A stretch of 25,151 nt of DNA from a virus. The translations under genes and the position numbers were made by a program. How positions within the stretch are numbered: position 1 is the stretch's first letter; every line of letters begins with the position of its first letter. The notes beneath the pieces are model-generated. The model made no database searches. It had not been told where the DNA came from and worked only from the letters and a program-made list of their open reading frames with translations. The DNA is taken from positions 1 to 25,151 of the IMG/VR virus record IMGVR_UViG_3300042555_001595. One strand, 5' to 3'. Shown in pieces: positions 9,558-9,786 of the stretch.

Positions 9558-9580
9558 TGTGGGGAATTTGTGTACAGACT
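9558..9580 (+). repeat. attP-flanking direct repeat, left copy
   Basis: This 23-bp sequence begins TGTGGGGAATTTGTG and is identical to 9754-9776. It starts 2 bp after the metallophosphoesterase stop and lies 80 bp left of the tRNA core. It is a candidate arm-type integrase binding site. Confidence 0.75.
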
Positions 9581-9615
9581 ATCGGGAAACAGGGCTACTG
9601 TAGGGCATAGCAGTC

Positions 9616-9648
9616 CCTTGCAAATCAGCAAGTTGCTGATCTGCAAGG
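9616..9648. repeat. 33-bp near-perfect palindrome in attP
   Basis: Arms 9616-9631 and 9633-9648 are complementary at 15 of 16 positions around a single central G (CCTTGCAxATCAGCAA and its complement). It lies 12 bp before the tRNA core. A one-base loop argues against an RNA terminator and for a symmetric protein-binding site or cruciform. Confidence 0.75.
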
Positions 9649-9660
9649 AACTGTGTCATC

Positions 9661-9705
9661 CTCATAACCCGAAGGTCGTAGGTTCAAATCCTACCCCCGC
9701 TACCA
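9661..9705 (+). other. attP core: 3' half of an initiator-type tRNA(CAT)
   Basis: The segment starts at the anticodon loop CTCATAA (anticodon CAT) followed by CCCGA. It continues with a variable loop, T arm GTAGG-TTCAAAT-CCTAC, acceptor strand CCCCGCT, discriminator A and CCA. The CATAACCC anticodon arm and the T arm resemble bacterial initiator tRNA-fMet. No matching acceptor 5' strand (AGCGGGG or similar), D arm or intact anticodon 5' stem lies upstream, so this is not a functional tRNA gene. Integration would restore the host tRNA 3' end. Confidence 0.8.
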
Positions 9706-9750
9706 AATAAATCAGGCACTTACGACGAAACGAGAAAGACCTGAAACGAC

Positions 9751-9786
9751 GATTGTGGGGAATTTGTGTACAGACTCCCCACAATC
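9751..9786. repeat. Inverted repeat overlapping the integrase stop
   Basis: GATTGTGGGGA (9751-9761) pairs perfectly with TCCCCACAATC (9776-9786) across a 14-nt loop. It could slow transcription from either side, but no T-run follows in either direction. I therefore do not call it an intrinsic terminator. Confidence 0.6.
9754..9776 (+). repeat. attP-flanking direct repeat, right copy
   Basis: Exact copy of 9558-9580, 48 bp right of the tRNA core and immediately before the integrase stop codon. It is embedded in an 11-bp inverted repeat (9751-9761 with 9776-9786), which the left copy does not have. Confidence 0.75.

Follow-up and report, generated by a model that had tools for sequence, protein, structure and literature searches.

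The window analysed here, a stretch of viral DNA of 25,151 nucleotides, carries within positions 9558-9786 the 3' half of a tRNA gene between two exact repeats, beside an integrase gene. This raises the question of whether the locus is the attachment site of a temperate phage and, if so, where in a host the phage would insert and in which form its DNA was sampled. A sequence-only reading had proposed an attP with an initiator-tRNA core in a free phage genome, and the attP part of this proposal is borne out by the core, the arm sites on both sides of it and the adjoining integrase. Sequence comparison confirms that 9558-9786 has the make-up of a complete lambda-type attP adjoining a tyrosine integrase gene. 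With high confidence we assign the region as the attP of a temperate phage with a lambda-type (heterobivalent) tyrosine integrase, the core being the 3' half of a host tRNA-fMet. The features are as follows.

8327-9556, plus strand: metallophosphoesterase-like phage gene (phrog_221, E=2.3e-24), ending 1 bp before the P arm
9558-9580, plus strand: putative P-arm arm-type sites TGTGGGGA (9558-9565) and TGTGTACA (9569-9576), 11 bp apart; exact repeat of the P'-arm pair, with pairs at the same core distances in relatives
9623-9635, plus strand: putative P-arm IHF site AATCAGCAAGTTG, within an imperfect inverted repeat; fits WATCARNNNNTTR
9661-9705, plus strand: attP core, identical to the 3' half of initiator tRNA-fMet (positions 33-77 of a gene of 77 nt) and running from the anticodon loop to CCA
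9661-9667, plus strand: probable 7-bp strand-exchange (overlap) region CTCATAA, the anticodon loop
9710-9722, plus strand: putative P'-arm IHF site AATCAGGCACTTA; fits WATCARNNNNTTR
9754-9776, plus strand: putative P'-arm arm-type sites TGTGGGGA (9754-9761) and TGTGTACA (9765-9772), from the repeat and relatives
9776-9783, minus strand: possible further inverted arm site TGTGGGGA by the int stop codon, from the inverted repeat 9751-9767/9770-9786
9785-10786, minus strand: int, tyrosine integrase of 333 aa (phrog_1, PF00589, Foldseek)
10691-10786, minus strand: residues 1-32 of the integrase, covering most of its predicted arm-binding domain (structure model)

The 45 bp at 9661-9705 (CTCATAACCCGAAGGTCGTAGGTTCAAATCCTACCCCCGCTACCA) correspond to the 3' half of a tRNA with the anticodon CAT. 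Neither ARAGORN nor Rfam detects a complete tRNA in the window, so the 5' half is absent from it, as the sequence-only reading had stated, and bacterial flanking genes are absent as well. A search of the core against genomes, which that reading had called for, found complete tRNA-fMet genes ending in exactly this sequence in one gammaproteobacterial family, and the proposed identity as initiator tRNA-fMet is thereby upheld. The complete 77-nt host gene consists of TGCGGGGTGGAGCAGTCTGGCAGCTCGTCGGG followed by the 45-bp core, and attP thus carries the tRNA from the anticodon loop to the 3' end, as in elements that integrate at the anticodon loop. In nearly all attP sites the identity between host and phage starts at the first base of this loop. 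Based on this left limit, and by analogy with the anticodon-loop subsite of tyrosine integrases (PMC4383910), the overlap probably comprises CTCATAA.

The host genes read in sequence have the form TGCGGGG...GTCGGGCTCATAACCCGA...CCCCGCTACCA with U1:U72, GGG at 29-31 and CCC at 39-41, and the restored gene has both the 1-72 mismatch and the GGG/CCC anticodon stem of bacterial initiators. The T at position 72 of the phage copy had been considered a base change bearing on initiator identity. This is ruled out by the host genes read, which are already U1:U72, so that integration would restore the host's own 1-72 mismatch. A U1:U72 pair is found in 207 of 4438 bacterial initiators (PMC5143459).

Comparison with related phages provides further evidence for the attP assignment. 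In over 20 other phage contigs the same 45 bp occupy the same place beside a homologous integrase, exactly or with one compensated T-stem change, a recurrence far beyond chance. At the variable T-stem pair, 23 cores have T:A and seven have C:G with no mixed pair, and host tRNA-fMet genes display the same two versions. A decayed tRNA gene or relic attR, within a defective, non-integrating remnant, is an extremely unlikely origin for the fragment. The missing 5' half would fit such decay, as would the relative L035 with its mutated anticodon and no arm sites by the core, but apart from the compensated pair and the L035 change the core is invariant while the flanks diverge, and the arms, the putative IHF sites and an intact integrase are all retained.

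In L035 the core lies near 7637-7681 (+ coordinates), about 640 bp from int, with the anticodon CGT instead of CAT; arm and IHF sites are lacking on its int side and it is possibly a disrupted attP. Three phage contigs with unrelated flanks (L067, L068 and L073) contain the same 45-bp tRNA-fMet core, which suggests that other, unrelated elements use the same tRNA-fMet site.

The 23-bp direct repeat TGTGGGGAATTTGTGTACAGACT is present in exact copies at 9558-9580 and 9754-9776, as first described, and a search with its 22-bp core allowing up to three mismatches returned these two copies in the window and none in 100 shuffled sequences. The earlier reading had not assigned the repeats a role; we propose from comparison with relatives that they represent integrase arm sites, two sites in each copy. 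In the attP comparison the pairs lie at -104/-93 and +49/+60 relative to the core, with the left offset one base shorter in some attP sites including that of the window, and they are of the same type on both arms. Pairing, spacing and a type that matches the integrase N-terminal domain are what is expected of a lambda-type attP with arm sites on both sides of the core. The repeats might instead be regulatory operators or terminators, since the right copy forms the inverted repeat 9751-9767/9770-9786 with sequence beside the int stop codon. We regard this as very unlikely, because the repeats are paired at 11-bp spacing and at fixed distances on either side of the core, their type tracks the integrase N-terminal domain among phages, and a search for a terminator-like site at the repeats found none. 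The inverted TGTGGGGA at 9776-9783 abuts the int stop codon in phages of the window type only and does not occur with the other arm types.

The consensus for IHF is WATCARNNNNTTR. When both strands of the whole 25-kb window were searched only two matches were found, at 9623-9635 and 9710-9722, flanking the core, and from this consensus match they are regarded as putative IHF sites. The P-arm site recurs at -38/-39 in most attP sites with left-arm sequence, and the P'-arm site at +5 in 26 of 26 rows checked, including a bacterial metagenome-assembled genome (MAG) described below. We also considered the strong fold of the P arm as a functional hairpin. A perfect hairpin is not kept in relatives, and the fold holds the conserved IHF-consensus site; the hairpin was rejected.

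Between the end of the int gene at 9785 and the core there are 80 bp, and the region has phage genes to either side, in agreement with the sequence-only reading. Profile searches identify the int product as an integrase (phrog_1, E=3.6e-55; PF00589, E=3.1e-23) with the Phage_integrase catalytic domain, and the motifs HDIRHTF and MIDNYVH are conserved in the integrase alignment. Like lambda Int, to which Foldseek gives a full-length match (1z1g_A over 355 columns), the protein is modelled with a three-stranded N-terminal domain. The model, which is of moderate confidence (mean pLDDT 68; N-terminal domain 54-70), places strands at residues 5-9, 12-18 and 24-31 and a helix at 34-54, consistent with a three-stranded β-sheet arm-binding domain followed by a helix. 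Close relatives of the integrase were not found in the phage collection, where all sequences were below 60% identity.

As to the host, it most likely belongs to one gammaproteobacterial family, the one that includes the MAG with a relative's integrase and comprises 217 genomes. At least 155 of the 217 match the tRNA-fMet gene at E <= 1e-12; with a looser threshold of 1e-3, which also admits weak matches to other tRNAs, 58 of 60 sampled family genomes match. One complete host genome has the genes in the order nuoN, tRNA-fMet, rimP, nusA, infB. By simple consensus, no P-arm promoter that could drive rimP-nusA-infB after integration was found.

Integrated forms, with a restored tRNA and a 3' fragment, are seen for relatives. 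In the Gammaproteobacteria MAG VGVG01000012.1 (L075) a complete tRNA-fMet is followed by an IHF-consensus site at +5 and TGTGTACA arm sites at +49/+60; beyond these lies an integrase 81% identical to that of the window, and the nuo operon is on the other side of the tRNA. Its sequence points to this junction as the attL of a relative with the tRNA restored. In another genome, G011, a complete tRNA is followed 2.5 kb downstream by an exact copy of the 45 bp with GTGCCGT arm sites before it, which we interpret from the sequence as an attL/attR remnant with both ends marked. The idea that prophages start at this tRNA-fMet gene thus stands for the MAG attL and the G011 remnant but not for an intact prophage: none with both att ends was found among the 217 family genomes and 296 sampled genomes of the order, and an attR beside rimP was not found within the stretches searched in MAGs G001 and G002.

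Beyond int, the L075 stretch (1-8850) encodes KAS III, AMP-binding, TonB-receptor and hydrolase genes, which are not phage genes, and the element may be an island using such an integrase or a decayed prophage or remnant. The 2.5-kb remnant in G011 (L143, C12, 6152-8736) holds Gp49-like (HigB-type) and HTH_37 (HigA-type) genes, likely a toxin-antitoxin pair left after loss of int. Directly after the CCA of tRNA-fMet, two further stretches of host genomes (L093 and L097) show an IHF-like site (+5) together with 11-bp tandem repeats TGTGTAGGCA(C/G). It looks as though this tRNA had also served other elements, with a further arm type; a close integrase did not turn up in these stretches.

The form in which the window was sampled follows from IMG/VR contig G218 (35,395 bp), which the window matches with 99.96% identity across 20,122 bp and 100% across 5,155 bp. 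G218 starts and nearly ends with the same 126 bp, giving a closed length of 35,248 bp, and the window, which spans the ends of this record, amounts to about 71% of the circularly closing genome. Because it crosses these ends, its source was a free form, a concatemer or a tandem. The earlier claim of a non-integrated genome is supported insofar as the terminal repeat of G218 is crossed, but the window is a 71% fragment, and the same internal attP is expected of a concatemer or of a double lysogen in tandem. It is improbable in our assessment that the source was a replication concatemer or a tandem double lysogen and not a free circle, even though the junction of two tandem prophages has attP structure and a terminal assembly overlap looks the same for a circle and a permuted linear concatemer. 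The attP is internal in six related contigs with terminal repeats (G218 and five more with repeats of 85-407 bp), and in the attP contigs examined we noticed no host gene, whereas with a tandem array some assemblies would have to include host flanks. For the latter reason a free circle or a permuted concatemer is more likely than the middle of a tandem double lysogen.

Taken together, the integrase would bind the arm sites on both sides through its N-terminal domain and the core through its central and catalytic domains, with host IHF bending the DNA between arms and core. Strand exchange within the 7-bp anticodon loop would join the 5' half of the host tRNA-fMet to the phage-borne 3' half, so that the window phage, as a lysogen, would have the initiator tRNA rebuilt at attL and the 45-bp fragment left at attR. 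Sequence alone fixes where this uncultured phage group integrates, which host family it probably uses and how its attP is built.

We regard the site as an ordinary attP of the lambda type, well conserved and with a less usual target. As in lambda, integrase sites occupy both arms and the integrase gene adjoins; the putative IHF sites and the presumed 7-bp overlap would be further points in common. The site differs in having two arm sites per side, 11 bp apart, and a core within a tRNA gene. The lambda attP is more complex. Phages and islands that integrate into tRNA genes, and their anticodon-loop subsite, were reportedly described by Williams in 2002, a study cited in PMC4383910. Among the tRNA-integrating elements in Islander, where subsite A (crossover in the anticodon loop) accounts for 2083 islands, attP likewise carries the tRNA 3' part that is restored on integration (PMC4383910). 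The window phage is set apart by its target, an initiator tRNA-fMet with U1:U72 upstream of rimP-nusA-infB (one genome read). Phage Fionnbharth, which shows tRNA-dependent lysogeny, also integrates into a host tRNA gene, with a core of about 10 bp and the whole tRNA supplied by the phage (PMC10865867); in contrast, the 45-bp core of the window phage rebuilds the host tRNA, and ARAGORN finds no phage tRNA in the window.

While this type of site is well known, what appears new from the sequences is that arm sites and integrase specificity change together, and this natural co-switch is the part worth following. Three arm-site types pair with three types of N-terminal domain among 24 integrases, and each attP has one type on both arms: TGTGGGGA/TGTGTACA, TGGGACGT or TGTGCCGT. 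In L024 and L026 the outermost left site is the variant TGTGCCAT or TGTGCCGT. The more distant relatives L034 and L035 have other arm sequences and are outside the typing. Across integrase residues 4-35 (32 aa) identity is 77-100% within a type and 56-75% between types, whereas the identities of the integrase bodies overlap (75-100% versus 70-96%). As the sequences are related, the perfect match of types does not represent independent events, and the informative cases are L024/L026 and L019/L058. Compared with L022, L030 and L031, L024 and L026 have bodies that are 94-96% identical, N-terminal domains that are only 66-69% identical and another arm type; what differs is chiefly the first ~32 residues of the integrase along with both arms, and nucleotide divergence is highest at the two arms and towards the 5' end of int. 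Conversely, L019 and L058 share 91% of the N-terminal domain and the arm type with bodies that are 75% identical.

About 0.9 kb separates the N-terminal domain codons from the nearest arm, so a single exchange cannot move an arm together with the domain and leave the body in place. Functional matching would be the simplest reason for the paired switch: arm-site sequence and N-terminal domain apparently must match, and at least one joint switch seems to have taken place. The two main types are told apart by eight residues, six of which (13, 15, 18, 26, 27 and 30) are located on the predicted strands 2 and 3. On balance it seems probable that the N-terminal domain and both arm sets form a co-evolving specificity module, with at least three specificities (TGTGTACA/TGTGGGGA, TGGGACGT and TGTGCCGT) for one core and one host tRNA, exchanged between near-identical integrases, and with about six residues in strands 2 and 3 setting recognition. 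If so, arm types could keep phages that share an attB from acting on each other's attachment sites. The group offers a natural data set of arm specificity switching between integrases with nearly identical bodies, and the candidate residues and their cognate DNA motifs would be useful for orthogonal integration tools.

A small-scale precedent exists in cluster K mycobacteriophages. In the attP of cluster K1, pairs of 11-bp arm sites flank the common core, and arm-site differences are paralleled by residues 17 and 19 of the integrase N-terminal domain (PMC3203893). The paired arrangement and the tracking of arm differences by this domain are the same as here, but among the K1 phages very few arm-site positions vary, and integration is targeted to tmRNA (PMC3203893). 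In the window group most of the 8-bp motif changes, with three types among 24 integrases, including those with 94-96% identical bodies.
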